Shown one piece after another: positions 7,500 through 59,854 of a DNA stretch of 64,000 bases. Made by a program: the position numbers and the translations under genes. Source of the stretch: Mycolicibacterium porcinum (GTDB lineage: Bacteria; Actinomycetota; Actinomycetes; Mycobacteriales; Mycobacteriaceae); NCBI GenBank assembly GCA_002086835.1, contig MVIG01000024.1, forward strand, positions 17,349-81,348, read 5' to 3'. Below the pieces are notes generated by a model. That model was given only the letters and a program-made list of their open reading frames with translations. It did no database searches and had not been told where the DNA came from. Positions within the stretch are counted from its first letter, which is position 1. Every line of letters begins with the position of its first letter.

Positions 7500-7514
7500 G
7501 AGAATAGCATTCTC
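7500..7514. promoter_or_regulatory. GAGAA-N5-TTCTC palindrome, copy 1
   Basis: GAGAATAGCATTCTC is an exact copy of the recurrent motif, 34 bp before the TTG start of the short FadE gene. The 278-bp divergent intergenic region 7466-7743 holds this and a second copy and no gene. Confidence 0.65.
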
Positions 7515-7622
7515 ATTCTGTGGTGCGACCTTCTCCTCCAGCAAGTACCGGTTCTCCGGAGCCATCCGCTGTGCGGGTGACCAGCACCAGCGCTTACCTG
7601 CGACAAAGCACCATTGCAATCT

Positions 7623-7637
7623 GAGAACTATGTTCTT
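7623..7637. promoter_or_regulatory. GAGAA-N5-TTCTC palindrome, copy 2
   Basis: GAGAACTATGTTCTT has one mismatch to the recurrent motif and sits 106 bp before the amidohydrolase-like start. With copy 1 it places both divergent operons under the same putative regulator. Confidence 0.55.
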
Positions 7638-7743
7638 GCCATAGAAGAATATGGATCTAGACTGGCTGTAAGATCCGGCGCAGCAGTCACGCCGTCGTCA
7701 GCGCGTGCACAGCTCGTTCCCGGACGGACATCGGAGGACAGCC

Positions 7744-8880
7744 TTGGCTTTGAAAGACCCGGCACAACCCGGCAGTGCGGGAATGCCTGTCAGCACACCG
7801 CTTGTCGATGCGAGCGTGCACGTCTTCTTCGGTTCGAACAAGGATTTGCGGCAGAACTTCCTGAAGGAACCGTTCGCCAGTCGCGGCTTCCCCGATTACG
7901 AGATGAACTGGTATGGCGCCCCTGGCGGCGAGTACGCCAAGGGCACAAAGGGACCCGACCGTCAGTACCCCGGTTCCGATCCCGACATCGCGGCGCAGCA
8001 CCTGTTCGCCGAGCGCGGCGTCGACATTGCGATCCTGCACCCCATGACCCGCGGCATCATGCCCGATCGCCACCTCGGCACCGCGCTGGCCGCCGCTCAC
8101 AACGCGATGATGGTGACGCGGTGGCTCGAACACGAGGAGCACGGCGAGCGGTTCCGCGGCACCATCCGGGTCAATCCGGACGACATCGTCGGCGCCTTGC
8201 GCGAGATCGACAAGTACAAGGACCATCCGCGCGTGGTGCAGATCGGCATCCCGATGCAGTCCCGCGAACTCTATGGCAAGCCGCAGTTCTGGCCGTTGTG
8301 GGACGCCGCCGCCGAGGCCGGCCTGCCGGTGGCCGTGCACATCGAGGGCGGGGCGGGCATCCAATTCGCGCCCACCCCGTCGGGCAAGACCCGGACGTAT
8401 GAGCAGTACCTGGGGTTCATGGCGCTGAATTACATCTATCACCTGATGAACATGATCGCCGAGGGTGTGTTCGAGCGGACTCCCGAGCTGAAGTTCGTCT
8501 GGGCCGACGGCGCCGCGGACATGTTGACCCCGTTCATGTGGCGGATGGACTGCTTCGGCCGTCCGCACCTGGAGCAGACGCCGTGGGCACCCAAGATGCC
8601 TAGCGACTACTTGCCGGGCCACGTCTACTTCGTCCAGGGCGCCCTCGACGGGCCCGGCGACACCGACTTCGCCGGCGAGTGGCTGAGCTTCACCGGCAAG
8701 GAAGACATGGTGATGTTCGGCTCCAGCTATCCGCACTGGCAACTGAACGAACCGGAGATCCCGAGCTCGTTCAGCACCGAACAGCGCGACAAGCTGTTGT
8801 GGCGCAACGCCGCCAAGCTGTACGGCCTGGAGAGCGAATTCGCAACTGCCGGTTCATCGTCCGCAGTAGCGGCGCAGTAG
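7744..8880 (+). CDS. Amidohydrolase-2-like protein lacking metal ligands
   Basis: A 378-residue member of the ACMSD/LigW-type amidohydrolase family. The start is TTG 7744, with GGAGG seven bases upstream. The fold motifs are recognisable (HIEGG near residue 200, MWRMD, SYPHW), but two carboxylate metal ligands present in the next gene are changed. The first-strand DxH is S24-V25-H26, and the last-strand SSDYPHW is GSSYPHW. The EH pair before the MWRMD segment is DG here, although other amidohydrolases in this window also lack that His. I infer a non-catalytic or differently acting partner of the adjacent intact paralogue. Confidence 0.8.
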   Translation: MALKDPAQPGSAGMPVSTPLVDASVHVFFGSNKDLRQNFLKEPFASRGFPDYEMNWYGAPGGEYAKGTKGPDRQYPGSDPDIAAQHLFAERGVDIAILHPMTRGIMPDRHLGTALAAAHNAMMVTRWLEHEEHGERFRGTIRVNPDDIVGALREIDKYKDHPRVVQIGIPMQSRELYGKPQFWPLWDAAAEAGLPVAVHIEGGAGIQFAPTPSGKTRTYEQYLGFMALNYIYHLMNMIAEGVFERTPELKFVWADGAADMLTPFMWRMDCFGRPHLEQTPWAPKMPSDYLPGHVYFVQGALDGPGDTDFAGEWLSFTGKEDMVMFGSSYPHWQLNEPEIPSSFSTEQRDKLLWRNAAKLYGLESEFATAGSSSAVAAQ

Positions 8881-8899
8881 GTATCTGAGGGAGGCCTTC

Positions 8900-10042
8900 A
8901 TGACCATCACCACCAACCCACGGGTACCGGCCGCTGAGCGCATCGCGGTGCGCTGCGTCGACTCCGACGTCCATCCGATGCCGCGGCGCGGCGAGCTGAT
9001 CGAGTACATCCCGGAGCCTTGGCGCAGCAAGTACTTTCTGAGCCACAAGGTCGGCGAGCAGATCTACTATGACGCGCCCGACTATGCGCATGCGTATGCC
9101 ATGCGCGTGGACGCGTTCCCGCCGGACGGCGAGTTCGCCTGCAGCGACCCCGATATGGCGCTGCGCCAGCTCGTCATGGAAGCCGGCTCTGACATCGCCA
9201 TTCTCGAACCGACCCACTCGGAACACAGGCTGGGCGAAGCTACCGCAGCCTATTGCACGGCCACCAATCTGTGGCTGGCCAACCACTGGCTGGACAGCCA
9301 CAACAACTGGCACGAGCGATGGCGGGGTTCGGTCTGCGTGGCGATCGAGGAGCCGCAACTGGCGGTGGCCGAGATCGAGCAATGGGCCGAACACCCTTAC
9401 ATGGCACAGGTTCTGATCAAGGCCGAGCCGCGGCCGTCGTGGGGTGACCCGAAGTACGACCCGATCTGGGCCGCCGCCACCAAGCACGACATCACCGTGA
9501 GCTGTCACCTGTCCCGCGGAGAGTACGAGACCCTCCCGACGCCTCCGGTGGGGCTGCCGAGCTACAACCACGATTTCATGGTCAGCTACTCGCTGTTGGC
9601 GGCCAACCAGGTGATGAGCCTGATCTTCGACGGGGTCTTCGACCGGTTCCCGGCACTGCGCATCGTGTTCGTCGAGCACGCCTTCACCTGGATCCTGCCG
9701 CTGATGTGGCGCATGGACACCATCTACGAAGCGCGCAAGAGCTGGATGGACATCAAGCGCAAGCCGAGCGAATACGTCAAAGACCACATCAAGTTCACCA
9801 CCCAGCCGCTGGACTACCCCGAGGACAAGACCGAACTGTCCCGGGCCTTCGAGTGGATGGAATGCGAGAAGATCCTGCTGTATTCCAGCGACTATCCGCA
9901 CTGGACGTTCGACGATCCGCGCTGGCTCGTCAAGCACCTGCCCGAGCACGCCCGCGAGGCGATCATGTTCCGCAATGGCCTCGAGACCTACAAGCTGCCC
10001 GAGACCGTGCCGGTGCTCGAGGGCCAGGTGCGGGTGTTCTGA
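8900..10042 (+). CDS. Amidohydrolase family protein (intact metal site)
   Basis: A 380-residue TIM-barrel amidohydrolase. The expected ligands are visible: D23-V24-H25 on the first strand, His in SCHLS, His in VEHAF and Asp in SSDYPHW. The family includes ACMSD, LigW and gamma-resorcylate decarboxylase, which decarboxylate or hydrate unsaturated carboxylates, so C-C cleavage or hydrolysis of a ring-derived acid is plausible. A GGGAGG ribosome site precedes the ATG, 19 bases after the degenerate paralogue. Its TGA overlaps the ATG of the Rieske gene (TGATG). It probably acts together with the preceding protein. Confidence 0.85.
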   Translation: MTITTNPRVPAAERIAVRCVDSDVHPMPRRGELIEYIPEPWRSKYFLSHKVGEQIYYDAPDYAHAYAMRVDAFPPDGEFACSDPDMALRQLVMEAGSDIAILEPTHSEHRLGEATAAYCTATNLWLANHWLDSHNNWHERWRGSVCVAIEEPQLAVAEIEQWAEHPYMAQVLIKAEPRPSWGDPKYDPIWAAATKHDITVSCHLSRGEYETLPTPPVGLPSYNHDFMVSYSLLAANQVMSLIFDGVFDRFPALRIVFVEHAFTWILPLMWRMDTIYEARKSWMDIKRKPSEYVKDHIKFTTQPLDYPEDKTELSRAFEWMECEKILLYSSDYPHWTFDDPRWLVKHLPEHAREAIMFRNGLETYKLPETVPVLEGQVRVF

Positions 10043-10434
10043 TGACGGAACCGGACAAGCGCCCCCGGCTCGCTCAGGGACGCGAGCATGTCGTCGCCAC
10101 TGTGGACGAAATCCCGCCCGGTACACACAAACTGGTGCCGATCGGACGCCATGGCGTCGGTGTGTACAACGTCAACGGAACGTTCTATGCGATCGCCAAC
10201 TACTGCCCGCACGAGGGCGGTCCGCTGTGCTCGGGACGTGCCCGGGGTCGCACCGTGGTCGACGACGATGTGCCCGGCGACGCGGTGATGGTGCGCGACA
10301 AGGAGTTCATCTACTGCCCCTGGCACCAGTGGGGTTTCGAGCTGGCAACCGGCACCACTGCGGTGAAGCCGGAATGGAGTATCCGTACCTACCCGGTCCG
10401 CGTGGTTGGAGAAGATGTGTTGGTGATGGCATGA
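10042..10434 (+). CDS. Rieske [2Fe-2S] ferredoxin-like protein
   Basis: A 130-residue single-domain Rieske protein. The cluster ligands are C55-P-H57 and C92-P-W-H95. The spacing between the two boxes (34 residues between H57 and C92) is longer than the usual 15-18, so the loop holds an insertion containing VVDDDVPGD. No catalytic mononuclear-iron domain is present, so it is an electron carrier or an accessory protein. The start overlaps the stop of the amidohydrolase and its own TGA overlaps the next ATG, so all four genes of this operon are tightly coupled. Confidence 0.85.
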   Translation: MTEPDKRPRLAQGREHVVATVDEIPPGTHKLVPIGRHGVGVYNVNGTFYAIANYCPHEGGPLCSGRARGRTVVDDDVPGDAVMVRDKEFIYCPWHQWGFELATGTTAVKPEWSIRTYPVRVVGEDVLVMA

Positions 10435-11339: not shown

Positions 11340-11359
11340 CCACCGTACGGCCGGCGCGC

Positions 11360-11833: not shown

Positions 11834-11860
11834 GCCGGTAAGCCTAGCCGGGGACGGGAT

Positions 11861-13156: not shown

Positions 13157-13374
13157 AGATCAAGCTCGATCGCACGTTGTGCGATGGCTTCGGATTGTGC
13201 GCCAAACACGCACCGGAGTACTTCCCGCTCGATGACTGGGGCTACGCCTCGCTGCAGGGCGACGGCAACATCCCCGAGGCCGACGAGGACGCGGTCCGGC
13301 GCGCCCTGCTGGACTGCCCCGTGCACGCGATCATCGAGCTCAAGGAGGCGCACACCCATCAGGGGGCCGGGTGA
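13153..13374 (+). CDS. Small 3Fe-4S/4Fe-4S-type ferredoxin (CxxFxxC)
   Basis: A 73-residue ferredoxin with CDGFGLC near residue 10 and CPVHAI near residue 55, the CxxXxxC(X)nCP pattern of mycobacterial P450-associated ferredoxins. Here the variable position X is Phe; His or Cys there would influence cluster type and potential. ATG 13153 overlaps the TGA of the NuoF-like gene, which suggests the flavoprotein is its direct reductase. Confidence 0.9.
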   Translation: MKIKLDRTLCDGFGLCAKHAPEYFPLDDWGYASLQGDGNIPEADEDAVRRALLDCPVHAIIELKEAHTHQGAG

Positions 13375-13467
13375 GGCCGGCATTGACCCTTAGGGCTGGA
13401 TCACCGATCCCGGACACTGGTAACGTGATTCTCCACACAGAATAATTTGCTTACCACCGGAGTCGAG

Positions 13468-15123: not shown

Positions 15124-15139
15124 AGCATGCACGTATCCC

Positions 15140-21287: not shown

Positions 21288-21482
21288 CTAGTCGTTGATT
21301 TCACTGATCGCCCGTTCCGGGCAGTTGTCTATGGCCTCGCGCGCCGCGTCCTCGAGCCCGGCGGGAACGTCTTCCGGGTCTGCCACCGCCCAGCCGTCAT
21401 CCGACATCTCGAAGACCTCGGGGCACAACGTCAGGCACATGCCGTGTCCGGCACACCGGTCCTCGTCAACCCTGACCCGCAT
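21288..21482 (-). CDS. Small P450-associated ferredoxin (CxxHxxC)
   Basis: A 64-residue ferredoxin with CAGHGMC and CPERAI, the CxxHxxC variant. The ATG overlaps the stop codon of the upstream P450 (TGATG), so the two are cotranslated partners. Confidence 0.93.
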   Translation of the reverse strand: MRVRVDEDRCAGHGMCLTLCPEVFEMSDDGWAVADPEDVPAGLEDAAREAIDNCPERAISEIND

Positions 21483-22762
21483 CAGCTGTCGAACTCCAGA
21501 TGCAGCTCGGTCAGCCCACGGAGGATGAAGGTGGGGATGTAGTTGTAGCGACGATCGCCGTCCGACCCGTGTTGGGCCTCGGAGATCCGGATGTCGTTGG
21601 TCCGGTCCAGCAATCGCTCGATGCCGACCCGGGTTTCGGCACGCGCCAACGGGGCCCCCGGGCAGCTGTGGATACCGCGGCCGAAAGCCAGGTGCTGACG
21701 GGCGTTCTTGCGTGCCGGGTCGAAGGTGTCCGGGTCCTCGAAGCGCCGCGGATCGCGGTTGGCCGCCCCGTTGAGCACCATCACCGTCGTGCCGGCGTTC
21801 AACTCGGTCTCGCCGATGGTCACCGGGCAGCGCGACAACCGGAAATCGCCCTTGACCGGGCTCTCGATCCGCAACGCCTCCTCGATGAAGTTCGGGATGA
21901 GGCTGCGGTCGGCCCGTAGCCGCTGCTGGATCTCGGGTTGTTCGCCAAGGACCTTCAAGGCGGTGCTGAGCAGACGCACCGTGGTCTCCTGCCCGGCCGA
22001 GAAGACGTTGGTCGCCACCCGCGCCACATCGCCGACATCGGGGATGCTGCCGTCGGGGAACGTAGCCTCGGCCAGGCCGGTCAGTACGTCGTCGCGCGGA
22101 TTGGCCCGACGATCCGACACATAGTCGGCGAACTGGCCGTAGAGGAACTCAAGCGGGCTGTGGGACAGCGACTCCTTGCTCGTGCTACCGATGCCACCGC
22201 CCGAATTCTGCTTGATGCCGTTGACGAAAGCTTCGCGATCCTCGTCCGGGATACCCAGCAGGTCGGCGATCACCAGCAGCGTGAACGGACCGGCGAAGCC
22301 CTTGATGAACTCGCCCCTGCCGGGCGCGAGATAGCTGTCGAGGACTTCGTCGGCCAACTGCCACATCGCGTCCTCGTTCTCCTTGAGTCGCTTGGGCGTG
22401 ATCAACCGCATCAACAGCGAGCGATGGTCGGTGTGGGTGGGCGGGTCAAGGGTCGGCAGCTGATCGCTGAACGGCAGTTCGTCGCGGTGCTTGTCGATCA
22501 GCGCGGTCACCTCCTCGGCACTGCGCCCCTCCAGCGGCACCGGAAATCCCGGGAACGGCCCGGTGACCGACAGGCAGGACGAGAAGGTTTCCTCATCGTT
22601 GTAGACCTGCACGGCCTCGTCCCAGCCGGTCACCATCGTGACGTTGTAGTGGTCTTCACGCGTGACCGGGCACTTGTTCCGCAGCGCCTCGAAAAATGGG
22701 TACGGGTCGTCGACCAATCGTTCATCGCGGAAAAAATCGATACCGGTTGGGTCGATCGCCAT
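21482..22762 (-). CDS. Cytochrome P450
   Basis: A 426-residue P450 with the I-helix SAGQETTV, ExxR in EEALR and the heme-binding loop FGRGIHSCPG. Its Pro after the Cys and its N-terminal layout differ from the other three P450s, so it belongs to a different CYP family. It heads a minus-strand operon (P450, ferredoxin, DUF1330, F420-type oxidoreductase). A one-mismatch GAGAA-N5-TTCTC palindrome lies 28 bp upstream and a second 117 bp upstream. Confidence 0.93.
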   Translation of the reverse strand: MAIDPTGIDFFRDERLVDDPYPFFEALRNKCPVTREDHYNVTMVTGWDEAVQVYNDEETFSSCLSVTGPFPGFPVPLEGRSAEEVTALIDKHRDELPFSDQLPTLDPPTHTDHRSLLMRLITPKRLKENEDAMWQLADEVLDSYLAPGRGEFIKGFAGPFTLLVIADLLGIPDEDREAFVNGIKQNSGGGIGSTSKESLSHSPLEFLYGQFADYVSDRRANPRDDVLTGLAEATFPDGSIPDVGDVARVATNVFSAGQETTVRLLSTALKVLGEQPEIQQRLRADRSLIPNFIEEALRIESPVKGDFRLSRCPVTIGETELNAGTTVMVLNGAANRDPRRFEDPDTFDPARKNARQHLAFGRGIHSCPGAPLARAETRVGIERLLDRTNDIRISEAQHGSDGDRRYNYIPTFILRGLTELHLEFDS

Positions 22763-22790: not shown

Positions 22791-22805
22791 GAGAATGCGG
22801 CTCTC
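22791..22805. promoter_or_regulatory. GAGAA-N5-TTCTC palindrome, copy 3
   Basis: GAGAATGCGGCTCTC has one mismatch to the consensus; with its flanks it forms a perfect 6-bp repeat, ATGAGA-N7-TCTCAT (22789-22807). It sits 28 bp before the P450 ATG. Confidence 0.55.
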
Positions 22806-22879: not shown

Positions 22880-22894
22880 AAGAATAGGATTCTC
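22880..22894. promoter_or_regulatory. GAGAA-N5-TTCTC palindrome, copy 4
   Basis: AAGAATAGGATTCTC has one mismatch, in the first base. It lies in the middle of the divergent P450/TetR region, 117 bp from the P450 start. Confidence 0.5.
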
Positions 22895-36088: not shown

Positions 36089-37411
36089 TCAGTCTCGCGC
36101 GCCGGCAACGGCTTTGGCGTTCGCCTGGAAGTCGGCGAACGTGGTACCGGTCTTCTCCTTGTGACTCAGCGCGCGGATCGCCACGTCGTGCCCCTCGGCG
36201 GCCTTGCGCAGCGCTCCGACGGTGGCCTGGTCCTTGGGTACGTGTGCGAACGGCTCGAAGTGGTAGAGCCGCATCGCGTTTTCGTGGGTGATCTTGTTGA
36301 TCTCGTCGTCAGGGACGTCGTAGGTCTCGAACACGGCGTGCAGTTCTTCGGGGGCGCCCGGCCACATCGAGTCCGAGTGCGGGTAGTCCATCTCCCAGCA
36401 GATGTTGTCGACGCCGATCTCATGCCGGTTCTTCACCCCGACCGGGTCGGAGATGAAGCAGGTCATGAAGTGCTCCCGGAAGACCTCGGAGGGCAGCTTG
36501 CCGCCGAAGTCCTGATGGGTCCACGTCGAGTGCATGTCGTAGGTGCGGTCCACCCGGTCCAGGAAGTACGGAATCCACCCGGTGCCCCCCTCGGACAGCG
36601 CGATCTTGAGACCGGGGTACGCCTTGATCGGCGCCGACCACAACAGGTCCGCCGCGGCCTGGACGATGTTCATCGGCTGCAGCGTGATCATCACGTCCAT
36701 CGGCGCGTCCGGTGCCGTGATCGCCAACTTGCCCGACGACCCGATGTGCACGTTCATCACCGTGTCCGTGTCGACCAGGGCCTCCCACAACGGCTTCCAG
36801 TACTCCAGGTCGTGGAATGACGGGTAACCCAATGTTGACGGGTTCTCGGTGAAGGTCAGCGAGTGCACGCCCTTCTTCGATACCCGACGCACTTCGTCGG
36901 CGCACAGCTGCGGGTCCCAGATCGCCGGGATGGCCATCGGGATGAACCGCCCCGGATTCGACCCGCACCACTCGTCGATGTGCCAGTCGTTGTAGGCCTG
37001 TACCAATGCCAACGAGAACTCGTCGTCGTCGGTGGCGAACAACCGGGCGGCGAACCCGGGGAAGGAGGGGAAGTTCATGGTCGCCAGCACACCGCCGGCG
37101 TTCATGTCCTTGACCCGTTCGTCCGGGTCGTAACAGCCCTTACGGATCTCATCCAGCCCCTGCGGCTCCAGGCCGTACTCCTCCTTGGGGCGGCCGGCCA
37201 CCGCGTTGAGTGCCACGTTCGGGATCACGGTGTCCCGGAACTGCCAGGTGTCGCTGCCGTCCGGGTTGTGCACCAGCCGCGGTGCCTCGTCACGGTATTT
37301 GGCCGGCAGATGGTTCTTGAACATGTTCGGCGGTTCGATGATGTGGTCGTCGACGCTGATCAAGATCATGTCGTCTTTGCGCACTGTCTCGCTCCGTTCC
37401 TCGGCCGTCAC
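36089..37411 (-). CDS. Amidohydrolase family protein
   Basis: A 440-residue ACMSD/LigW-type amidohydrolase. Metal ligands seen: D21-D22-H23 in VDDHIIEPP, His in MNVHIGSSG and Asp in EMDYPHSDS. The sixth-strand His is replaced (SEGGTGW), as in one other amidohydrolase in this window. It is longer than the others because of a C-terminal helical tail. It heads the 30480-37411 operon. GTG 37411 is taken as start; ATG 37369 is possible and would leave more room for the TTCTC/GAGAA cluster upstream. Confidence 0.85.
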   Translation of the reverse strand: MTAEERSETVRKDDMILISVDDHIIEPPNMFKNHLPAKYRDEAPRLVHNPDGSDTWQFRDTVIPNVALNAVAGRPKEEYGLEPQGLDEIRKGCYDPDERVKDMNAGGVLATMNFPSFPGFAARLFATDDDEFSLALVQAYNDWHIDEWCGSNPGRFIPMAIPAIWDPQLCADEVRRVSKKGVHSLTFTENPSTLGYPSFHDLEYWKPLWEALVDTDTVMNVHIGSSGKLAITAPDAPMDVMITLQPMNIVQAAADLLWSAPIKAYPGLKIALSEGGTGWIPYFLDRVDRTYDMHSTWTHQDFGGKLPSEVFREHFMTCFISDPVGVKNRHEIGVDNICWEMDYPHSDSMWPGAPEELHAVFETYDVPDDEINKITHENAMRLYHFEPFAHVPKDQATVGALRKAAEGHDVAIRALSHKEKTGTTFADFQANAKAVAGARD

Positions 37412-37561: not shown

Positions 37562-37576
37562 GAGAACCCGATTCTC
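37562..37576. promoter_or_regulatory. GAGAA-N5-TTCTC palindrome, copy 5
   Basis: GAGAACCCGATTCTC is an exact copy of the recurrent motif, 44 bp upstream of the GTG of the CMD-family gene that heads the Rieske oxygenase operon. Confidence 0.65.
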
Positions 37577-37620
37577 GCAACCGAGAGTCAGTGATGGGTC
37601 ATCGAGAGGAGAACCGCCCC

Positions 37621-38151
37621 GTGCGCTTGGCCCCCTTGCCCGCCGAGGAGTGGGACGACGACGTGCGACGCGCACTGTCGGTGATGCTTCCGGAGGAGCG
37701 GCTCAATCCCGAGGGAGCGGGAACCGCGCTGTCGACGCTGGCCCGCCACCCCGCGCTGACAAAGGCATTCCTGCGGTTCAGCAATCATCTGCTGTTCCGT
37801 TCCACGCTGGACCCACAGATGCGTGAGCTCGCCATCCTGCGGATCGCCCACCGTAAGCAATGCGAGTACGAGTGGACCCACCACGCTTTCATCGGCAAGT
37901 CAGAAGGACTCACCGATGAACAGATCGCGAGCAGCACGAGCGGCGAAGGCTCCAGCGCGCTCGACCAACTGGTGCTCGACTCCGTCGACGAACTCGATGG
38001 GCAATCGGAGATCTCGGACGGCACCTGGGCCGCCCTGAGCGAGCACCTCGACGAACGCCAGCGCATGGACCTGGTCTTCACAATCGGCGGCTACGGCCTG
38101 ATGGCCATGGCCTACAACACCTTTGGAATCGCGCCGGAATCCGGCCACTAA
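37621..38151 (+). CDS. Carboxymuconolactone decarboxylase (CMD) family protein
   Basis: A 176-residue all-helical CMD/AhpD-fold protein. RELAILRIAHRKQCEYEWTHHAFIGKSEG is split over the conserved helix pair (RELAILR and EYEWTHH), with no redox CxxC. It therefore belongs to the decarboxylase-like rather than the alkylhydroperoxidase branch. GTG 37621 with GAGGAG nine bases upstream is favoured; ATG 37594 is in frame. It heads an operon with the Rieske oxygenase, 25 bp downstream. Confidence 0.83.
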   Translation: MRLAPLPAEEWDDDVRRALSVMLPEERLNPEGAGTALSTLARHPALTKAFLRFSNHLLFRSTLDPQMRELAILRIAHRKQCEYEWTHHAFIGKSEGLTDEQIASSTSGEGSSALDQLVLDSVDELDGQSEISDGTWAALSEHLDERQRMDLVFTIGGYGLMAMAYNTFGIAPESGH

Positions 38152-38176
38152 CTCAAGAAGAAAGTAGAGGTAGATG

Positions 38177-39556
38177 ATGGCGTTCTTCCCGAAGCCGGCT
38201 GCCGGCAGCTGGACCGAGAACTGGCCCGAACTGGGCACCGGCCCGGTCAACTACGAGGATTCGATCGATCCCGAGCACTGGAAACTGGAGCAGCAGGCCA
38301 TCTTCCGCAAGACCTGGCTGCAGATGGGCCGGGTGGAGCTGATTCCCAAGAAGGGCCGGTACATCACCCGCGAACTGCCGTCGGTCGGGCCAGGCACCTC
38401 GATCATCATCGTCAACGACGGCGAGCAGATCCGCGCCTTCTACAACCTGTGCCGCCACCGCGGTAACAAGCTGGTGTGGAACGACTACCCGGGCGAAGAG
38501 GTCTCCGGCAGCTGCCGGCAGTTCGTCTGCAAGTACCACGCCTGGCGTTACGACCTCAAGGGCGATCTGACGTTCATCCAGCAGGAGCAGGAGTTCTTCG
38601 ACGTCGACAAGGCCGACTACCCGCTCAAGCCGGTGCGCTGCGAAGTGTGGGAGGGCTTCATCTTCGTCAACTTCGACGACGACGCGGTCTCACTCGAGGA
38701 GTACCTGGGCGAATTCGCCGAGGGCCTCAAGGGTTATCCCTTCCACGAGATGACCGAGCACTACAGCTACCGCTCGGAGATCAAGGCCAACTGGAAGCTG
38801 TTCATCGACGCGTTCGTCGAGTTCTACCACGCGCCGATCCTGCACATGAAGCAGGCGGAGAAGGAGGAAGCCGAGAAGCTGGCCAAGTTCGGATTCGAGG
38901 CGCTGCACTACGACATCAAGGGCGATCACTCGATGATCTCGTCCTGGGGTGGCATGAGCCCGCCCAAGGATCTGAAGATGGTCAAGCCCATCGAGCGCAT
39001 CCTGCACAGTGGTCTGTTCGGGCCGTGGGATCGCCCCGACATCAAGGGCATCCTGCCCGACGAGCTGCCGCCTGCGATCAATCCGGGCCGGCACTCGACG
39101 TGGGGCCAGGACTCTTTCGAGTTCTTCCCGAACTTCACCCTGCTCTTCTGGGCGCCGGGCTGGTACCTCACCTACAACTACTGGCCCACCGGGGTGGACA
39201 GCCACATCTTCGAGGCCGACTTGTACTTCGTGCCGCCGAAGAACCTGCGCGAGCGGCTGTCCCAGGAACTGGCCGCTGTGACGTTCAAGGAGTACGCATT
39301 CCAGGACGCCAACACGCTGGAAGCCACCCAGACGCAGATCGGCACCCGCGCCGTACTCGACTTCCCGCTCTGCGATCAGGAAATCCTGCTGCGCCACCTG
39401 CACCACACCGCACACAAGTACGTCGACCGGTACAAAGCGACCAAGGCCGCCGGGGCGAGCGCAGCGACGGGGAATGATGACGGGAATGGCTCGACCAACG
39501 GCAAGCACGCCGCCCAGAGCGAGAAGGCCGCAGAGAAGGATGCCGCAAATGTCTAA
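38177..39556 (+). CDS. Rieske non-heme iron oxygenase, alpha subunit
   Basis: A 459-residue ring-hydroxylating oxygenase. The Rieske ligands are CRHRGN and CKYHAW (about residues 94-120), and the catalytic iron site is in DAFVEFYHAPILH. The last 40 residues are a low-complexity Lys/Ala/Gly/Asn tail, unusual for the family. There is no beta-subunit gene; a 109-residue protein overlaps its 3' end by eight bases. It probably hydroxylates or demethylates an aromatic or terpenoid/steroid-like substrate. ATG 38177 gives better spacing to AGAGG than ATG 38174. Confidence 0.9.
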   Translation: MAFFPKPAAGSWTENWPELGTGPVNYEDSIDPEHWKLEQQAIFRKTWLQMGRVELIPKKGRYITRELPSVGPGTSIIIVNDGEQIRAFYNLCRHRGNKLVWNDYPGEEVSGSCRQFVCKYHAWRYDLKGDLTFIQQEQEFFDVDKADYPLKPVRCEVWEGFIFVNFDDDAVSLEEYLGEFAEGLKGYPFHEMTEHYSYRSEIKANWKLFIDAFVEFYHAPILHMKQAEKEEAEKLAKFGFEALHYDIKGDHSMISSWGGMSPPKDLKMVKPIERILHSGLFGPWDRPDIKGILPDELPPAINPGRHSTWGQDSFEFFPNFTLLFWAPGWYLTYNYWPTGVDSHIFEADLYFVPPKNLRERLSQELAAVTFKEYAFQDANTLEATQTQIGTRAVLDFPLCDQEILLRHLHHTAHKYVDRYKATKAAGASAATGNDDGNGSTNGKHAAQSEKAAEKDAANV

Positions 39557-45152: not shown

Positions 45153-45935
45153 CTACTTGATGTTCTGCTTCATTCCGTCGATATCCATCAGTACCGGCCA
45201 TCCGCTGACGCTAAGCGCATTGCCGTGCCCGGTCTGGTGAATGTCGAACACCGATTGGATCGCGGCGTAGAAACCCTGTACGTCGAGGGTCTGATTGACG
45301 GCCCGCTTGGCCTGGCGGAGCGCGAACGCCGGCATCTGCGCGATCTGCGCGGCCAGCTCGGCCGTCTGGGCATCGAGTTCGTCGCGCGGCACCACCCGGT
45401 TGACCATGCCGGTGCGCTCGGCTTCCTCCGCGGTCAGCGCCCGGCCGGTGAACAGGATCTCCTTGGCCTTGCGGGCACCGAGCTCCCAGGTGTGGCCGTG
45501 ATACTCGACACCGCCGATGCCCATCAGCGCCACCGGGTCGGAGAACAGCGCGTCGTCGGCGGCCAGAATGAGATCGCACGGCCAGCAGAGCAGCAGGCCG
45601 CCGGAGATGCAGCGCCCCTGGACCGCCGCGATCGACGGTTTGGGCACGTTGCGCCACCTCAGCGTGTACTCGAGATAGCGCCGCGACTCGTGCTCGATGA
45701 GGAATTCCAGCGTGATCTTGTCCGGCACCGGCCCACCACCGCGCAGGTCATGCCCCGCGGAGAAGTGCTTGCCGTTGGCGCGCAGCACGATCACCTTCAC
45801 CTCGCGGTCGTCGGCAGCCCTGGTCCAGGCGGCGTCGAGCTCATCGAGTAGTTCCGGGTTCTGGGCATTGGCCGCTTCCGGCCGGTTGAGCGTGATCGTG
45901 GCGACCGAATCGGCGACGTCGTAGTCGATGTACAC
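45153..45935 (-). CDS. Enoyl-CoA hydratase/isomerase family protein
   Basis: A 260-residue crotonase. NGKHFSAGHDL forms the first oxyanion-hole strand and GRCISGGLLL the second, with SDPVALMGIGGVE at the catalytic region. Start GTG 45935 has AGGGA five bases before it. Double-bond hydration or isomerisation of an enoyl-CoA is the likely reaction. It precedes the adenylate cyclase by 16 bp and may be cotranscribed with it. It is divergent from the TetR gene at 46207. Confidence 0.88.
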   Translation of the reverse strand: MYIDYDVADSVATITLNRPEAANAQNPELLDELDAAWTRAADDREVKVIVLRANGKHFSAGHDLRGGGPVPDKITLEFLIEHESRRYLEYTLRWRNVPKPSIAAVQGRCISGGLLLCWPCDLILAADDALFSDPVALMGIGGVEYHGHTWELGARKAKEILFTGRALTAEEAERTGMVNRVVPRDELDAQTAELAAQIAQMPAFALRQAKRAVNQTLDVQGFYAAIQSVFDIHQTGHGNALSVSGWPVLMDIDGMKQNIK

Positions 45936-46069: not shown

Positions 46070-46084
46070 GAGAATACTATTCTC
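46070..46084. promoter_or_regulatory. GAGAA-N5-TTCTC palindrome, copy 6
   Basis: GAGAATACTATTCTC is an exact copy; with its flanks it reads TGAGAA-N5-TTCTCA, the longest perfect version. It lies between the divergent enoyl-CoA hydratase and TetR genes (134 and 122 bp from their starts). Confidence 0.65.
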
Positions 46085-46206
46085 ACAGTACGAAAGTTAC
46101 AATCTCCGACACGTTGGCCGCGAGGGGGTCTGGCACCACAATGGCAAGGCGTTCTCCGGTACAGTCAGTTCATGTTCTCCCCACTCGACAAGCGTCGGAG
46201 CAGCCA

Positions 46207-46860
46207 GTGACCACCGCTGGCGAAGAACCCGCGTGGAAGCAACGAGCTGTCGAGCGGTCGATCAAAACCGCCAAGTTGCGCGCCGCCCAGCGGGTGCAAC
46301 GGTTCCTGGACGCAGCCCAGGCGATCATCATCGAAAAGGGCAGCACCGACTTCACGGTGCAAGAGGTCGTTGACCGCTCTCGCCAGTCTCTCCGCAGCTT
46401 CTACCTGCAGTTCGACGGTAAGCACGAGCTCCTGCTGGCGTTGTTCGAGGACGCCCTGAGCCGCTCGGCGGATCAGATCAGGGCTGCCACCTCGACGCAG
46501 GGCGAGCCGATCGAGCGTCTCAAGGTGGCCATTCAGCTGCTCTTCGAATCGTCGCGGCCCGATCCGGCCGCCAAGCGTCCGCTGTTCACCGACTTTGCGC
46601 CCCGTTTGCTGGTTTCGCATCCGTCTGAGGTCAAGGTGGCGCATGCGCCGCTGCTGGCACTGCTCACCGAGCTCATGGAAGAAGCCTCCGAGGCCGGCCA
46701 GCTGCGGCCCGGGATCAACCCCCGACGGATGGCCGCGATGACGATGCAGACGGTGATGTTCGTCGCCCAGTCCAGCGGCGGCGCCGACGAGGCATCGGTC
46801 CATCCGATCACCGCCGACGAGGTCTGGGACTTCGTGGCCAACGGATTCGCCGCCAGCTAG
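46207..46860 (+). CDS. TetR/AcrR regulator, candidate regulator of the GAGAA-N5-TTCTC sites
   Basis: A 217-residue TetR protein. HTH region about residues 28-75 (RFLDAAQAIIIEKGSTDF, VQEVVDRSRQSLRSFYLQFDGKHELLLALF). Its helical regulatory domain has several Met/Ala-rich helices. GTG 46207 is preceded by GGAG; an ATG at 46141 lacks one. Exact copies of GAGAA-N5-TTCTC occur upstream (46070) and two bases after its stop (46863), and a near copy at 47115. This makes it the best candidate for the regulator reading the motif (inference). Confidence 0.88.
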   Translation: MTTAGEEPAWKQRAVERSIKTAKLRAAQRVQRFLDAAQAIIIEKGSTDFTVQEVVDRSRQSLRSFYLQFDGKHELLLALFEDALSRSADQIRAATSTQGEPIERLKVAIQLLFESSRPDPAAKRPLFTDFAPRLLVSHPSEVKVAHAPLLALLTELMEEASEAGQLRPGINPRRMAAMTMQTVMFVAQSSGGADEASVHPITADEVWDFVANGFAAS

Positions 46861-46862: not shown

Positions 46863-46877
46863 GAGAATTTCGTTCTC
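46863..46877. promoter_or_regulatory. GAGAA-N5-TTCTC palindrome, copy 7
   Basis: GAGAATTTCGTTCTC is an exact copy, two bases past the TetR stop codon and followed by the related AGGAAAGAATTTTCCT. Confidence 0.6.
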
Positions 46878-47114: not shown

Positions 47115-47129
47115 GAGAATTCGATTCTT
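47115..47129. promoter_or_regulatory. GAGAA-N5-TTCTC palindrome, copy 8
   Basis: GAGAATTCGATTCTT has one mismatch, 134 bp upstream of the mycofactocin-type SDR gene; the core AGAATTCGATTCT is itself an inverted repeat. Confidence 0.55.
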
Positions 47130-47263: not shown

Positions 47264-48109
47264 ATGACTGGACGGGTGGAAGGCAAGGTTGCGTTCGTCA
47301 CCGGCGCGGCCCGCGGCCAGGGACGTAGCCACGCGGTACGGCTGGCTCAAGAGGGCGCCGACATCATCGCGATCGACATCTGTGGACCGATCCGGCCCGG
47401 TGTGGAGACCGCCATCCCGGCCTCCACCTCCGATGACCTGGCCGAAACCGCGAACCTCATCAAGGGACTCAACCGTCGCGTCGTGACCGCCGAAGTCGAC
47501 GTACGCGATGCGGACGCGATCAAGGCCGCCGTGGACAGCGGCGTCGAGCAGCTCGGCCGCCTCGACATCATCGTGGCCAACGCGGGTATCGGCAACGGCG
47601 GTGACGTGCTGCACGAGACCAGCCAGCTCGACTGGGACGAGATGATCGACATCAACCTGTCGGGCGTCTGGAAGTCGGTCAAAGCCGGTGTGCCGCACCT
47701 GATCGAAGGCGGCCGCGGCGGCTCGATCATCCTGACCAGCTCGGTCGGCGGGCTCAAGGCCTACCCGCACTGCGGAAACTACGTCGCCGCCAAGCACGGT
47801 GTCGTCGGGCTGATGCGCGGCTTCGCCGTGGAGCTGGGGCAGCACAACATCCGTTGCAACAGTGTGCATCCCACACATGTGGCGACCCCGATGCTGCACA
47901 ACGACGGCACGTTCAAGATGTTCCGGCCCGACCTGGAGAATCCGGGTCCCGACGACATGGCGCCGATCTGCCAGTTGTTCCACACCCTGCCGATCCCCTG
48001 GGTCGAGGCCGTGGACATCAGCAACGCCGTGCTGTTCCTGGCCTCCGACGAGGCCCGCTACGTCACCGGCGTGACACTGCCGGTCGACGCGGGAAGCTGC
48101 CTCAAGTAG
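47264..48109 (+). CDS. Mycofactocin-coupled SDR family oxidoreductase
   Basis: A 281-residue SDR with the signature of the mycofactocin-dependent subfamily: GRVEGKVAFVTGAARGQGRSHAVRLAQEGAD, split here into VTGAARGQGRSHA and the long insertion after DICGP (residues 38-70). Active site Ser in TSSVGG and YVAAK; C-terminal PVDAGSCLK. Members such as carveol dehydrogenase keep NAD bound and pass electrons to mycofactocin. It is probably an alcohol dehydrogenase for a terpenoid- or steroid-like alcohol. The mycofactocin genes are not in this window. Confidence 0.88.
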   Translation: MTGRVEGKVAFVTGAARGQGRSHAVRLAQEGADIIAIDICGPIRPGVETAIPASTSDDLAETANLIKGLNRRVVTAEVDVRDADAIKAAVDSGVEQLGRLDIIVANAGIGNGGDVLHETSQLDWDEMIDINLSGVWKSVKAGVPHLIEGGRGGSIILTSSVGGLKAYPHCGNYVAAKHGVVGLMRGFAVELGQHNIRCNSVHPTHVATPMLHNDGTFKMFRPDLENPGPDDMAPICQLFHTLPIPWVEAVDISNAVLFLASDEARYVTGVTLPVDAGSCLK

Positions 48110-55905: not shown

Positions 55906-55954
55906 GTGCGGTACTCCAATCGGACTGTGGGGCTGAGGATCGGCATGCCCGCAA

Positions 55955-57172
55955 CTACCAGTTGACGGGGAGTTCGTAGACGCCGTAGGCGAGCCGGTCG
56001 TGCTTGAACGGCACCTCGTCGAGCGGAATGGCCAGGCGCAGGGTCGGGATCCGGCGCAGCAGGGTGTGGAAGACGATCTGCAGTTCGGCGCGTGCCAGCT
56101 GCTGACCGACGCACTGGTGGCGGCCGTAGCCGAAGCCGAGCTGCTGGCTGGCGTCGCGACTGAGGTCGAGCTTGTCGGGCTCCGGGTAGGCCTTCGCATC
56201 CCAGTTGGCCGGGGACAGATCGATGATGACGCCGTCACCGGCGCGGATGGTCTCACCGCTGATCTCGATGTCCTCCAATGCCACCCGGCGCTGCCCGGTC
56301 TGGATGATGGACAGATAGCGCATCAGTTCCTCGACCGCGTTGGCGATCACCTTCGGATCGTCTGCGGCACGCAGGAAGTCGGCCTGGTCGGGGTTCTCCA
56401 GAAGGGCCAGGATGCCGATGCCGATCATGTTGGCGGTGGTCTCGTGTCCGGCGATCAGCAGACCGGTGCCCAGCTGCGCGGCTTCCTTGACGCTGATCTC
56501 ACCGGCGGTCACGCGCTCGGCCAGATCGGACACCGCGTCCTCGGACGGGTTGGCCTGCTTTTCCTCGACCAGGTTGATCAGGTACTGATGCAGGCTCATC
56601 GCGCCCTTCTGCATGGCGTCCGCCGCGGCGTAGCGGGCCAGCCCGGCGTTGGCGTGCTCCTGGAAGAATTCATGGTCTTCGTAAGGGACACCGAGCATCT
56701 CGCTGATCACCACCGTGGGCACCGGCAAGGCCAGCTTGGCGACGAGGTCGGCGGGCTGCGGGCCGGCCAGGATCTTGTCGATGCACTCATCGGTGATCTT
56801 CTGGATCGCCGTGCGCAGTCCCTCGACACGACGGAACGTGAATGGCTTGGACAGCATTCGGCGGAACCGGGTGTGCTCCTCGGCGTCGGAGGTGAACACC
56901 GACCGCGGCCGCTTGTCGACGGTGGAGAGCATGTGCTCGTTCCAATGCGGGAAACCCGCGATCCGGTCGTCCACACTTATGCGGGAGTCCGCAAAGAGCG
57001 TCCGGGCCTCTTCGTGACCGGTGATCAACCACGGGGTGCTGCCGTTCCAGATCTTCACGCGGAACAGGCCTTTGGGGTTGCCCAGCATCGGCGGTGGCGG
57101 CGCGAACGGGCACGCCGCGGCGCGCTCCATCGGGTATTCGGGGATGTCTACTTCGGTAACGGTTTCGGACAC
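55955..57172 (-). CDS. Cytochrome P450 (CYP105-like)
   Basis: A 405-residue P450 with N-terminal ACPFAPPP, I-helix LIAGHETTANM, ExxR in EELMR and heme loop FGYGRHQCVGQQLARAELQ, the pattern of the CYP105/CYP107 group. GTG 57172 has GAGGA five bases upstream and is preferred to TTG 57184. It follows a ferredoxin gene by 14 bp. Members of this group are often promiscuous toward terpenoids, steroids and drugs, so the substrate is not predictable. Confidence 0.93.
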   Translation of the reverse strand: MSETVTEVDIPEYPMERAAACPFAPPPPMLGNPKGLFRVKIWNGSTPWLITGHEEARTLFADSRISVDDRIAGFPHWNEHMLSTVDKRPRSVFTSDAEEHTRFRRMLSKPFTFRRVEGLRTAIQKITDECIDKILAGPQPADLVAKLALPVPTVVISEMLGVPYEDHEFFQEHANAGLARYAAADAMQKGAMSLHQYLINLVEEKQANPSEDAVSDLAERVTAGEISVKEAAQLGTGLLIAGHETTANMIGIGILALLENPDQADFLRAADDPKVIANAVEELMRYLSIIQTGQRRVALEDIEISGETIRAGDGVIIDLSPANWDAKAYPEPDKLDLSRDASQQLGFGYGRHQCVGQQLARAELQIVFHTLLRRIPTLRLAIPLDEVPFKHDRLAYGVYELPVNW

Positions 57173-57186
57173 GTCATTCCTCAAGG

Positions 57187-57381
57187 TCAGTCGTGAATCT
57201 CGATGGCTAGGGCTGGGCAGGCCGCCGCGGCGCGGCGGGCATTGTCGATCTGGTCCGGACCGGGTTCGGATTCGAGCAGCACCACGACGCCGTCCTCGTC
57301 ACGCTGGTCGAACACCTCACTGGCGTTGAGCACGCACTGCCCCGAGGAGACGCACTTGTCCTGGTCGACAGTGACTTTCAT
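57187..57381 (-). CDS. Small P450-associated ferredoxin (CxxSxxC)
   Basis: A 64-residue ferredoxin with CVSSGQC and CPALAI; the variable residue is Ser. It starts inside the stop codon of the TetR gene (ATGA overlap) and precedes the P450, so all three are cotranslated. Confidence 0.93.
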   Translation of the reverse strand: MKVTVDQDKCVSSGQCVLNASEVFDQRDEDGVVVLLESEPGPDQIDNARRAAAACPALAIEIHD

Positions 57382-58043
57382 ATGACGTCGCTTTCTCGTG
57401 TCACCGGGGCCATCCACAGACCGACGATCGCGTCGATCAATCCCGACGCCGCGCCCTGCCAGGACGCCCGCGGCACGTTGCCGCCCTGCGCCATCGCGCG
57501 CTCGCGGTCGGCACAGCTGTGCATCAACAGGTTGCGCGCCATGATGTTGCGTTCCGCGCGGACCTCTGCGGGCAGTTCGGGCAGGCAGTTCTTCATCCCC
57601 TCGATGACCTGCACCAGCGACGGCGAACTCAACGCGTCACGGACCACGATGTTGTGGTAGGCCGGATCGGTCATCACCTGGGCGGCGAACCTGGCGTACC
57701 AGGTCGGGTTCCCCAACGCCGCAAGGTGATCGGTGAGCGGCTGGACCAGGCAGGACACCCAGTCCCGCAGGTTGGACGATGATCCGGTGTCGGCGACCAT
57801 CTGCTCGCGCAGGCACTCGATCGGACCGCGGTGCTTGTGTTCGATCGCGCGCACCAGGTCGGTCTTGGTGCCGAAGTGGTAACCGACGGCGGCGTTGTTA
57901 CCCTGACCGGCCGCCTCACTCACCTGACGGTTGGACACCGCGAACACGCCGTGCTCGGCATAGAGCCGCTCAGCCGCCTTGAGGATCGCCTCCTGGGTAC
58001 TGCTCGCCCGGTCGGCACGGGCGGTCCGGTTGGCTGTTGTCAC
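57378..58043 (-). CDS. TetR/AcrR family transcriptional regulator
   Basis: A 221-residue TetR protein. HTH about residues 18-65 (AILKAAERLYAEHGVFAV, VSEAAGQGNNAAVGYHFGTKTDLVRAI). GTG 58043 is placed after the two palindromes that probably control it; TTG 58055 or GTG 58100 are alternatives. It is the first gene of a nine-kilobase minus-strand operon that ends with the double CoA-transferase, so it likely autoregulates the whole operon. Confidence 0.85.
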   Translation of the reverse strand: MTTANRTARADRASSTQEAILKAAERLYAEHGVFAVSNRQVSEAAGQGNNAAVGYHFGTKTDLVRAIEHKHRGPIECLREQMVADTGSSSNLRDWVSCLVQPLTDHLAALGNPTWYARFAAQVMTDPAYHNIVVRDALSSPSLVQVIEGMKNCLPELPAEVRAERNIMARNLLMHSCADRERAMAQGGNVPRASWQGAASGLIDAIVGLWMAPVTRESDVI

Positions 58044-58045
58044 CG

Positions 58046-58069
58046 TTACAGTCAACGCCTCACCTGTAA
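58046..58069. promoter_or_regulatory. Inverted repeat TTACAG-N12-CTGTAA
   Basis: Perfect 6-bp inverted repeat adjoining the proposed TetR start. The same half-sites appear before the P450 genes at 17768 and 27544. Confidence 0.45.
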
Positions 58070-58091
58070 TTAAGTCAAGCACTTGATTTAA
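58070..58091. promoter_or_regulatory. Palindrome TTAAGTCAAG-CA-CTTGATTTAA
   Basis: Nine of ten positions pair across a 2-base centre, a strong operator candidate directly upstream of the TetR-led operon. Confidence 0.55.
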
Positions 58092-58184
58092 TCCTCCCAC
58101 GAGCCCGCCGACAGCACGGCTTTTGCCGGAAGTACCCTGGTTATCGAGGCAAGAACCGTAGTCGCGGCGGGGTTGGCTGGTGGG

Positions 58185-58988
58185 CTATTTCGGCTTCCTC
58201 GCGATCACCTTGCCCGCGACCGTGCCCCCATCGATAGGCAACACTGTTCCGGTCACATAGCGCGAGCGGTCGGTCGCGAAGTAGAGCGCCGCCTCGGCGA
58301 CATCCTCGACCGTGCCCTCCCGCTTGAGCGGACGGTCGTTGCGCATCTGGGCCCGGATCCCCGCCTCGAACTCCTCGATGCGTTCGCGTTCCTCCGGCGA
58401 CGCCGACTTGGCCACGATCGCGGTGCGGATGTTGCCAGGGGCGATGGCGTTGACCCGGATCTCGTAGTGGGCCAACTCGATCGCCGCCGACTTGGTGAAC
58501 TGGATGACCGCGGCCTTGGATGCGCGGTACGTCATCACCCCGCCGCCGGCCTGGATCCCGCCGATCGAGGTCAGGTTGAGGATCGAACCACCGCCATGCT
58601 CGGACATGTACCGGGCGGCATCGCGAGTGCCGGCCATCACGGCCCGGACATTGACCCGCATCACGGAATCGAAGTCGGCGAGATCGTCATCCATGAACCG
58701 CCGGTGCATCCGACCAGAGACGCCTGCGTTGTTGACCATGACGTCCAGGCCGCCGAAGGTGTCTACCGCTGCCGACACCAGGCGGCCCACCTGCTCGATG
58801 TCGCTGACATCGGTGAGCAGGAACCGGGCGTTCTCGCCGAGTTCGGCGGCCAAGGCCGAGCCGCGGCCCTCGTCGACGTCGCCGATCACCACCTTGGCGC
58901 CCTCGGCGGCGAACCGGCGTACCAGTCCTTCACCGAGACCCGACGCACCGCCGGTGACGACCGTGACTTTTCCGGCCAGCTCGTTCAT
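58185..58988 (-). CDS. SDR family oxidoreductase
   Basis: A 267-residue classical SDR: VTGGASGLGEGL, NNAGVSGR, Ser in NLTSIGG, YRASK and PIDGG. ATG 58988 overlaps the stop of the hydrolase gene upstream (ATGA). Motifs match dehydrogenases of cyclic or secondary alcohols; the product may feed the upstream hydrolase. Confidence 0.88.
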   Translation of the reverse strand: MNELAGKVTVVTGGASGLGEGLVRRFAAEGAKVVIGDVDEGRGSALAAELGENARFLLTDVSDIEQVGRLVSAAVDTFGGLDVMVNNAGVSGRMHRRFMDDDLADFDSVMRVNVRAVMAGTRDAARYMSEHGGGSILNLTSIGGIQAGGGVMTYRASKAAVIQFTKSAAIELAHYEIRVNAIAPGNIRTAIVAKSASPEERERIEEFEAGIRAQMRNDRPLKREGTVEDVAEAALYFATDRSRYVTGTVLPIDGGTVAGKVIARKPK

Positions 58989-59815
58989 CGCACCTCTTTC
59001 AGGAATTCCAGCAATACCGCCGTCAGCGCGGCGGGCTGTTCGATCTGTGGGCAGTGCCCGGCACCGGGGATCACCGCACTGCGGGCATCGGCGATCCGGC
59101 CGGCGATGTCGGCGGCCCAACCGGACGGCAGCAGCTTGTCACGATCTCCCTCGATGACCATGGTCGGCACACCGATGCGGTCATAGGCCCGTTGCGCCGA
59201 CGGCATCGCCGGCGCCTCGAGTCCGGGCCGCCGAAACCTGGCCGCGGCCAAGGACTCCCAGGCTCCCGGGGCGATGCTCGCCTCGTACCGCCGTTGCACG
59301 TAGGCCTCATCTGCCGGGTAGGACGGATCGGCGAACAATGCGGTGACGATGCGTCGCATCCCGTCCAGTGTGGCGTCGTAGTCGTACAACGCCGCTGAAT
59401 GTTCGTTGCGTTGGATCTCCCCTCCCCCGCAGATCGCGGTGAGCGATCGCACCGGGAGCCGCGGGGCATCCGAGGTGGCATCGACCAGTAGGTTGACCGC
59501 TCCCATCGAGTTGCCGACGAAATGTGCTGCATCGACGCCGAGTTCGGCGCAGAAGCGGGCGATATGCCGGATCCGCAGGCCCCGCCCGTCGTTGAAGTCG
59601 ATGACCTTGGCACTCTCACCGAAGCCCAGCATGTCCGGGGCGAGCACCCGGTAGTGCTCGGCGAGCACGCCGATGGCACGCTCCCAACCCAATTCGGCCC
59701 CGGCGCCGAACTCGCCGCCGTGCAACAGAACGACCGGGTCCCCGACGCCGGCCTCCAGGTAGCCGGTGGTCAAACCGTCGACGTCGATGGTCTTGCGTAC
59801 GAAGTCCACGGCCAC
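58985..59815 (-). CDS. Alpha/beta hydrolase (MhpC/HsaD-like)
   Basis: A 276-residue hydrolase resembling meta-cleavage product C-C hydrolases: VVLLHGGEFGAGAELGW, nucleophile GNSMGAVN, Asp in GDRDKLLP and His in GAGHCPQIEQP. A role in opening a diketone or meta-fission product is plausible. An exact GAGAA-N5-TTCTC palindrome lies 24 bp upstream of ATG 59815, and the gene is coupled to the SDR downstream. Confidence 0.88.
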   Translation of the reverse strand: MAVDFVRKTIDVDGLTTGYLEAGVGDPVVLLHGGEFGAGAELGWERAIGVLAEHYRVLAPDMLGFGESAKVIDFNDGRGLRIRHIARFCAELGVDAAHFVGNSMGAVNLLVDATSDAPRLPVRSLTAICGGGEIQRNEHSAALYDYDATLDGMRRIVTALFADPSYPADEAYVQRRYEASIAPGAWESLAAARFRRPGLEAPAMPSAQRAYDRIGVPTMVIEGDRDKLLPSGWAADIAGRIADARSAVIPGAGHCPQIEQPAALTAVLLEFLKEVR

Positions 59816-59839
59816 ACGATACTGATGTTTTCTGAATTG

Positions 59840-59854
59840 GAGAACATCATTCTC
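59840..59854. promoter_or_regulatory. GAGAA-N5-TTCTC palindrome, copy 9
   Basis: GAGAACATCATTCTC is an exact copy, extended to GGAGAA-N5-TTCTCC. It lies in the 82-bp gap between the C-C-type hydrolase and the divergent hydrolase-LuxR gene. Confidence 0.65.

Follow-up and report, generated by a model that had tools for sequence, protein, structure and literature searches.

The 64,000-nucleotide window analyzed here (Mycolicibacterium porcinum, contig MVIG01000024.1, positions 17,349 to 81,348) carries repeated copies of a palindrome, GAGAAY-N3-RTTCTC, which in our assessment is most likely the operator of a TetR-family protein encoded in the same window (TetR1; 46207..46860, + strand, 217 aa), through which TetR1 would switch a catabolic regulon. 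The gene set is conserved in many mycobacteria, and the palindrome is very probably the landing site of one repressor. An initial annotation, made from the nucleotide sequence of the window, had described the palindrome in the looser form GAGAA-N5-TTCTC and read it as the mark of an unnamed regulon; the motif proved to be concentrated in intergenic DNA and conserved at orthologous promoters, both of which support that interpretation. To this we add a candidate regulator, a refined motif, a korA-like target gene outside the island, and a larger gene cluster of which the island is a part.

The window was searched with GAGAA-N5-TTCTC. Five exact copies are present (starting at 7500, 37562, 46070, 46863, and 59840), compared with 0.018 expected for the composition of the window, close to the value of about 0.02 originally given. 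Copies with one mismatch start at 7623, 22791, 22880, and 47115, as listed by the initial annotation, and at two positions missing from its list, 3545 (in a gene) and 37429 (intergenic). All nine listed sites were found, and gene calls place each of them in an intergenic region, as had been claimed, 7 of the 9 between divergent genes. Allowing at most 1 mismatch, the window yields 11 matches versus 0.92 on average, and 3 at most, in 100 dinucleotide shuffles, and 10 of these 11 lie outside called genes, the exception being 3545. Across the whole genome (6.96 Mb, 102 contigs), the pattern occurs 16 times (5 of them in the window) and its reverse once, whereas the more specific GAGAAYNNNRTTCTC, in which position 6 is Y and position 10 is R, has 11 copies versus none for its reverse. 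Five of the 11 are on the contig of the window (C20; all in the window), two on C23, three on C24, and one on C37; 10 are intergenic, and the remaining copy (C24:6899) lies 33 bases within the called 5′ end of a hydrolase gene. Among the five exact copies without Y and R at these positions, four are inside genes and the fifth, on contig C1, lies between genes and is hairpin-like. In refined form, the motif reads GAGAAY-N3-RTTCTC.

A held-out matrix, trained on four other genomes (G034, G020, G150, and G101; 38 exact sites), gave ten matches scoring at least 14 on the contig of the window. All are intergenic; nine are the sites of the initial annotation, and the tenth lies beyond the window and separates an aldehyde dehydrogenase gene from a short-chain dehydrogenase/reductase (SDR) gene. 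Contigs C24 and C23 contributed three and five matches, respectively, again all intergenic, and Markov null sequences 0.3 matches per contig (mean of three resamples). The genomes used for training are relatives and hence not statistically independent, so that this comparison shows conservation as much as independence. The copies at 3545 (coding) and 37429 (intergenic) were not recovered by the matrix and are excluded from the parts list. On the basis of the shuffles, the reversed-pattern control, and the matrix, a chance origin of the sites was rejected. Comparison of orthologous promoters, which the initial annotation had recommended, showed that the comparison genomes have most of the sites at the same promoters, with the spacer bases varying.

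Among the window genes submitted to Pfam, three encode TetR proteins, TetR1, TetR2 (23193–23744), and TetR3 (57378–58043). TetR1 matches the TetR_N helix-turn-helix (HTH) domain (PF00440) at 31.0 bits against a gathering cutoff of 24, is 98% to 99% identical to its counterparts in Mycolicibacterium peregrinum, houstonense, setense, and senegalense, and is flanked by the sites at 46070 and 46863. Its reading frame is open from TTG 46114 (248 residues), in which GTG 46207 is residue 32; in-frame stops occur at residues 6 to 27 in 10 of 13 flagged relatives, with none in the aligned part of the other 3, and the HTH is free of stops in all 13. As these stops all precede residue 28 of the long frame, GTG 46207 is the likelier start.

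Among named genomes, all 80 TetR1 loci kept (the best 80 of 464 relatives, totaling 1.57 Mb) have an exact site no more than 150 bp upstream of the match. Equal frequency of the motif in coding or unrelated DNA, which the initial annotation had set against a regulon, was not observed: these loci hold 221 exact sites and no reversed ones, and 199 of the sites are intergenic, although intergenic DNA makes up 7.4% of the bases. With the 80 loci aligned on the site, position 6 is always T, position 10 is always A, and two of the three bases of the spacer do not vary (the other arm positions agree by construction, since the motif itself served for the alignment); the 70 bases preceding the site average 49% agreement. 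Exact upstream sites were likewise found in all 30 close same-genus TetR1 loci (own genome included), and in 22 of 25 further loci (1 with one mismatch and 2 with neither), among them all 5 that come from three other genera, the locus sets overlapping in that same-genus genomes and named loci partly share species. In the window, this predicted autoregulatory operator (GAGAATACTATTCTC, 46070..46084) separates TetR1 from a divergent crotonase gene (enoyl-CoA hydratase, PRK08290 subfamily; 45153..45935, −). A conserved block containing TACAAT begins 13 bp past the operator in the aligned loci, so the operator may cover the −35 region of tetR1; by its position and the conserved block, TACAAT (46098..46103, +) is the putative −10 element.

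Sites and TetR1 also co-occur across genomes. Among 198 same-genus genomes, TetR1 was detected in 167 (E ≤ 1e-20), in four of them only as weak relatives. Where TetR1 is strong (E < 1e-80; 163 genomes), the median is 9 sites and 158 genomes have at least 4; in the 35 genomes with no TetR1 or only a weak relative, the median is 0 and 2 genomes have at least 4. Beyond the genus, 272 genomes of the family were examined (E ≤ 1e-30): the 49 with TetR1 have a median of 8 sites (at least 4 in 38), and the 223 without it a median of 1 (at least 4 in 18). TetR1 occurs in 9 of the 31 sampled genera of the family.

Several observations weigh against assigning the sites to TetR1. Outside the genus, 11 of the 49 TetR1 genomes have fewer than 4 sites, and half of the 18 TetR1-lacking genomes with at least 4 sites (9) belong to a single genus, g6. 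Within the genus, one fragmented genome (G147, 93% complete) has 9 sites and TetR1 was not found in it, and G155 has 4 sites and weak TetR1 relatives only. Conversely, five TetR1 genomes have 0 to 2 sites (G026, G056, G063, G089, and G177); the exact site upstream of TetR1 is kept only in G056, and in G063 no site within 3 mismatches is found upstream of TetR1, yet the HTH segment is unchanged. The upstream site is exact in 9 of 19 more divergent or paralogous TetR1 loci and has one mismatch in 3, and the other 7 have neither form; the korA-like gene described below lacks the site in 10 of 25 TetR1 genomes; and TetR3 follows the sites about as well as TetR1 does. In part, the co-occurrence reflects loss or gain of the whole island.

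As to genus g6 itself, five of its genomes (G444, G461, G467, G232, and G251) carry 5 to 8 exact copies without a TetR1 orthologue; the best TetR1 relative has an E value of 2e-7 in G461, and none was found at 1e-6 in the other four. The paralogues of TetR1 form a separate case. A 36% identical paralogue on contig C81 of the same genome has no motif in its 3.6-kb locus, and a related palindrome, GAGAAG-N3-CTTCTC, stands at the paralogues' own promoter in one clade (L117, L123, and L125, the loci covered by the alignment) and is also carried by L121. Of the 7 divergent or paralogous loci with neither an exact nor a one-mismatch site, 4 have it. This clade differs near the HTH by Asp-to-Glu and Asp-to-Asn changes, possibly representing a shift of operator specificity. 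GAGAAG-N3-CTTCTC is found once per genome in G101, G022, G073, and G016, so that no second regulon is seen there.

The strongest competitor is TetR3, and genome distribution separates it from TetR1 poorly. TetR3 is present in 154 of the 198 genomes (E ≤ 1e-40): 153 have both proteins, 10 have TetR1 only, and 1 (G147, with its nine sites) has TetR3 only; moreover, 4 of the 5 TetR1 genomes that have 0 to 2 sites lack TetR3, and the 34 genomes with neither TetR3 nor a strong TetR1 have a median of 0 sites. The possibility that TetR3 binds the palindrome, with TetR1 only a target, would agree with these figures, but we consider it unlikely. Six of the ten TetR1-only genomes keep 4 to 11 sites (G137, G139, G148, G153, G156, and G162), including G156 (2 contigs, 100% complete), which has 11 sites and no TetR3 match. 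It is the promoter evidence that does separate the two proteins. TetR3 is the third gene of a run starting at site 59840, and the 457 bp upstream of it in the window contain no match within 2 mismatches; according to full site lists, the nearest exact site is 7 to 44 kb from the best TetR3 match in G020, G034, G150, G101, and G086, whereas the start of TetR1 adjoins a site in every one of the 80 named loci.

Less probable still is binding by some other regulator, be it TetR2, an IclR- or LuxR-type protein, or one encoded outside the window. TetR2, an IclR-type gene, and a LuxR-HTH gene do adjoin sites, the site beside the IclR-type gene recurs in other genomes (see below), and some genomes without TetR1 have 4 to 9 sites. 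TetR2, the only one of these regulators compared by distribution (E ≤ 1e-30), occurs in 71 of the 198 genomes, but the 92 TetR1 genomes without it keep a median of 9 sites, 87 having at least 4, and TetR2 was rejected on these grounds. A short symmetric palindrome suits a TetR dimer. That the palindromes are RNA hairpins or terminators, mobile repeats, or products of chance is highly improbable, because, although the exact copy on C1 lies in a longer hairpin-like context right after a gene and site 46863 comes directly after a stop codon, window sites mostly separate divergent genes, the reversed form of the refined motif is absent from the genome, and promoter position is kept while spacer bases vary.

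With TetR1 as the most likely regulator, the targets can be followed promoter by promoter, counting sites with at most 1 mismatch in stretches of the four genomes used for the matrix. Besides the tetR1 promoter, two promoter regions of the window have a site in all four. The first contains the predicted operators GAGAATAGCATTCTC (7500..7514) and, with one mismatch, GAGAACTATGTTCTT (7623..7637), between a FadE-type operon with two acyl-CoA dehydrogenase-type genes (5285..7420, −; 5285–6460 and 6461–7420) and a PF04909 operon (7705–10434, +). The second contains GAGAACCCGATTCTC (37562..37576), between a PF04909 gene (36089..37411, −) and an operon for a carboxymuconolactone decarboxylase-family protein (CMD; 37591..38151, +) and a Rieske oxygenase alpha subunit (38174..39556, +); the divergent partner is the CMD gene in G020, G150, and G101 and another cluster gene in G034. 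Equally constant are the aldehyde dehydrogenase/SDR site (always with one mismatch) and the sites of a CoA ligase/ferredoxin pair on C24 and of a PF04909 gene on C23. The one-mismatch operator at 22791..22805, upstream of a cytochrome P450 gene (CYP150A6-like; 6dcd, E 9e-150; 21482..22762, −), is conserved in three of the four genomes (not G150); a further one-mismatch operator (22880..22894) is also intergenic, between the P450 and TetR2. A thiolase/SDR site on C24 is likewise found in three, not being seen in the G101 stretches, and in G150 the gene called on the thiolase side is its neighbor. A C23 gene of unassigned product has its site in G034, G020, and G150. Two of the four share the site of a mycofactocin-coupled, carveol dehydrogenase-like SDR (3uve, E 4.5e-162; 47276..48109, +), namely G034 and G020; in the window, this gene is preceded by the operator directly after the TetR1 stop codon (46863..46877) and by a one-mismatch operator ending in TTCTT, a variant found in many relatives (47115..47129). 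The site of a hydrolase/IclR gene pair on C24 is also found in two (G020 and, with one mismatch, G150). No match was found in the comparison stretches examined for C23:29729 or for GAGAACATCATTCTC (59840..59854), which separates an alpha/beta hydrolase gene (58985..59815, −; first in a run with an SDR, TetR3, a ferredoxin, and a CYP105Q4-like P450) from a gene for an alpha/beta hydrolase fused to a LuxR-type HTH (59898..60959, +).

The targets extend beyond the island, which is part of a cluster whose sites cover approximately 100 kb (G034) and 185 kb (G020); korA lies approximately 140 kb beyond. The korA-like gene, on C37 in M. porcinum, encodes a 2-oxoacid:ferredoxin oxidoreductase and has a site in the three comparison genomes whose korA stretches were covered (G034, G020, and G150). 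It is present in all 60 genomes searched, and among the loci returned for 30 of them, an exact site lies 245 to 314 bp upstream in 15 of 25 TetR1 genomes, in none of 4 genomes without TetR1, and in the 1 genome with a weak relative only.

Several "amidohydrolases" of the regulon look, by sequence, like dinuclear monooxygenases. The PF04909 protein encoded at 36089..37411 matches DitZ (so named in PDB chain 8uyr; E 5e-107) and PtmU3 (E 5e-33), both of which are presumably linked to diterpenoids. Three His and three carboxylates (D-x-H, H, E, D-x-P-H) are present in 4 of the 5 aligned PF04909 proteins of the regulon, including those of 36089..37411 and 8900..10042 (+), whereas the product of 7705..8880 (+; start possibly at 7816) has Ser at two of the six positions; the ligand positions were deduced from alignment to DitZ and PtmU3, together with the ligand types of SfbO (PMC10811679). 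A small Rieske gene was sought beside the 7705–10042 pair and found at 10042..10434 (+), the adjacency being established for that operon alone. The order of degenerate PF04909 protein, full PF04909 protein, and small Rieske protein makes 7705–10434 resemble the AibH1-AibH2-AibG set, with its three genes in AibH1-, AibH2-, and AibG-like positions. PtmU3 and AibH2 belong to the amidohydrolase-related dinuclear oxygenases, and AibH1H2 is considered to act with the small Rieske protein AibG (PMC10811679, PMC10401708). The likeness to AibH1H2-AibG, PtmU3, SfbO, and DitZ consists of the PF04909 fold, the six-ligand pattern in 4 of 5 proteins, and the gene order of one operon, and an oxygenase activity of these proteins is predicted.

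These components suggest how the regulon might operate. A TetR1 dimer would occupy the 15-bp palindrome at its own promoter and about a dozen others and repress them, and it would be released by a small ligand, for which an acyl-CoA intermediate is the likeliest candidate. Derepression would then switch on P450s with their ferredoxins, a Rieske oxygenase, amidohydrolase-fold oxygenase-like enzymes, a mycofactocin-coupled alcohol dehydrogenase, and CoA ligation with beta-oxidation, acting on an alicyclic, perhaps terpenoid, substrate. The remote PDB matches of TetR1, which include the lipid-sensing KstR2 (E 0.004) and a fatty acid regulator (E 0.003), offer a weak hint of an acyl-CoA ligand, as do the acyl-CoA effectors described for MftR (PMC8728441). 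A terpenoid-like substrate is weakly suggested by homology to carveol dehydrogenase, to DitZ and PtmU3, and to the CYP150A5 system, which oxidizes beta-ionone (PMC6237146). More tentatively, TetR1 could, in the 9 of 31 genera that have it, run an undescribed oxygenolytic regulon for terpenoid-like compounds, built on P450s, a Rieske oxygenase, and amidohydrolase-fold dinuclear monooxygenases, with the korA-type enzyme supplying part of the reduced ferredoxin; we regard this extended scheme as possible and somewhat doubtful.

Other genes of the window deserve mention. P450 genes at 17768–19170 and 55955–57381 each adjoin a single-cluster ferredoxin of 64 to 67 aa (Fer4_15/Fer4_13), pairs that resemble those of PMC6237146, and the P450 at 55955–57172 is CYP105Q4-like (8swl, E 9e-201). 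A NuoF-like FMN/4Fe-4S protein followed by a 73 aa ferredoxin (11861–13374) is a possible ferredoxin reductase for the oxygenases. At 13447–15123, a single frame of 558 aa joins a ChsH2-type zinc ribbon and OB-fold domain to a thiolase-like C-terminal domain; 43649–45136, adjoining the crotonase gene, encodes an adenylate/guanylate cyclase catalytic domain with a HAMP domain; and 48957–51374 encodes an 805 aa protein holding two CoA-transferase family III stretches.

In environmental mycobacteria, genes for P450s, "amidohydrolases," acyl-CoA dehydrogenases, and SDRs with unassigned substrates form large clusters. With one shared operator and a specific candidate repressor, about a dozen dispersed promoters become a single pathway open to testing, for which derepression offers a read-out for finding the inducer, and a set of "amidohydrolases" is marked as probable oxygenases. 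The korA link, which reaches into central metabolism far from the cluster, would represent new physiology if true.

No description of this motif or regulator was recognized among the open-licence PMC papers listed by the literature searches. The predicted 8-base sites of Rv0081, GAGAATTC and GAGAATTT (PMC4757040), differ from the palindrome. MftR resembles TetR1 in being a TetR repressor tied to mycofactocin-dependent oxidation and in its acyl-CoA ligand (proposed for TetR1); its palindrome is T-N2-GGCA-N5-TGCC-N2-A and its effectors are long-chain acyl-CoAs (PMC8728441). It controls the mycofactocin cofactor genes, however, and with a different motif and TIGR03968 not among the matches of TetR1, its identity with TetR1 was rejected, as was that with FasR (NF053731, 29.8 bits against a cutoff of 330). 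The closest parallel is KstR, a TetR-family repressor that governs lipid catabolism in mycobacteria and whose palindrome TnnAACnnGTTnnA, TAGAAC-N2-GTTCTA, was found by the kind of own-promoter footprint used here and then confirmed by gel shift (PMC1995591). Both systems combine a TetR autorepressor (here predicted) with a large dispersed catabolic regulon and a palindrome conserved in the regulator's own promoter. The initial annotation had recognized the motif as neither that of KstR or KstR2 nor any other mycobacterial one; for KstR this holds, since GAGAAY and RTTCTC are separated by three bases rather than the two of KstR, the outer base is G/C, and TetR1 scores 19.1 bits against a cutoff of 280 for the KstR family (NCBIfam NF033703). 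It needs one qualification, however: the half-site AGAAC/T is nearly the same as the AGAAC of KstR, making the motif less alien than had been supposed. By this analogy, the regulon would work like a KstR-type autorepressed regulon, but it is not that of KstR.

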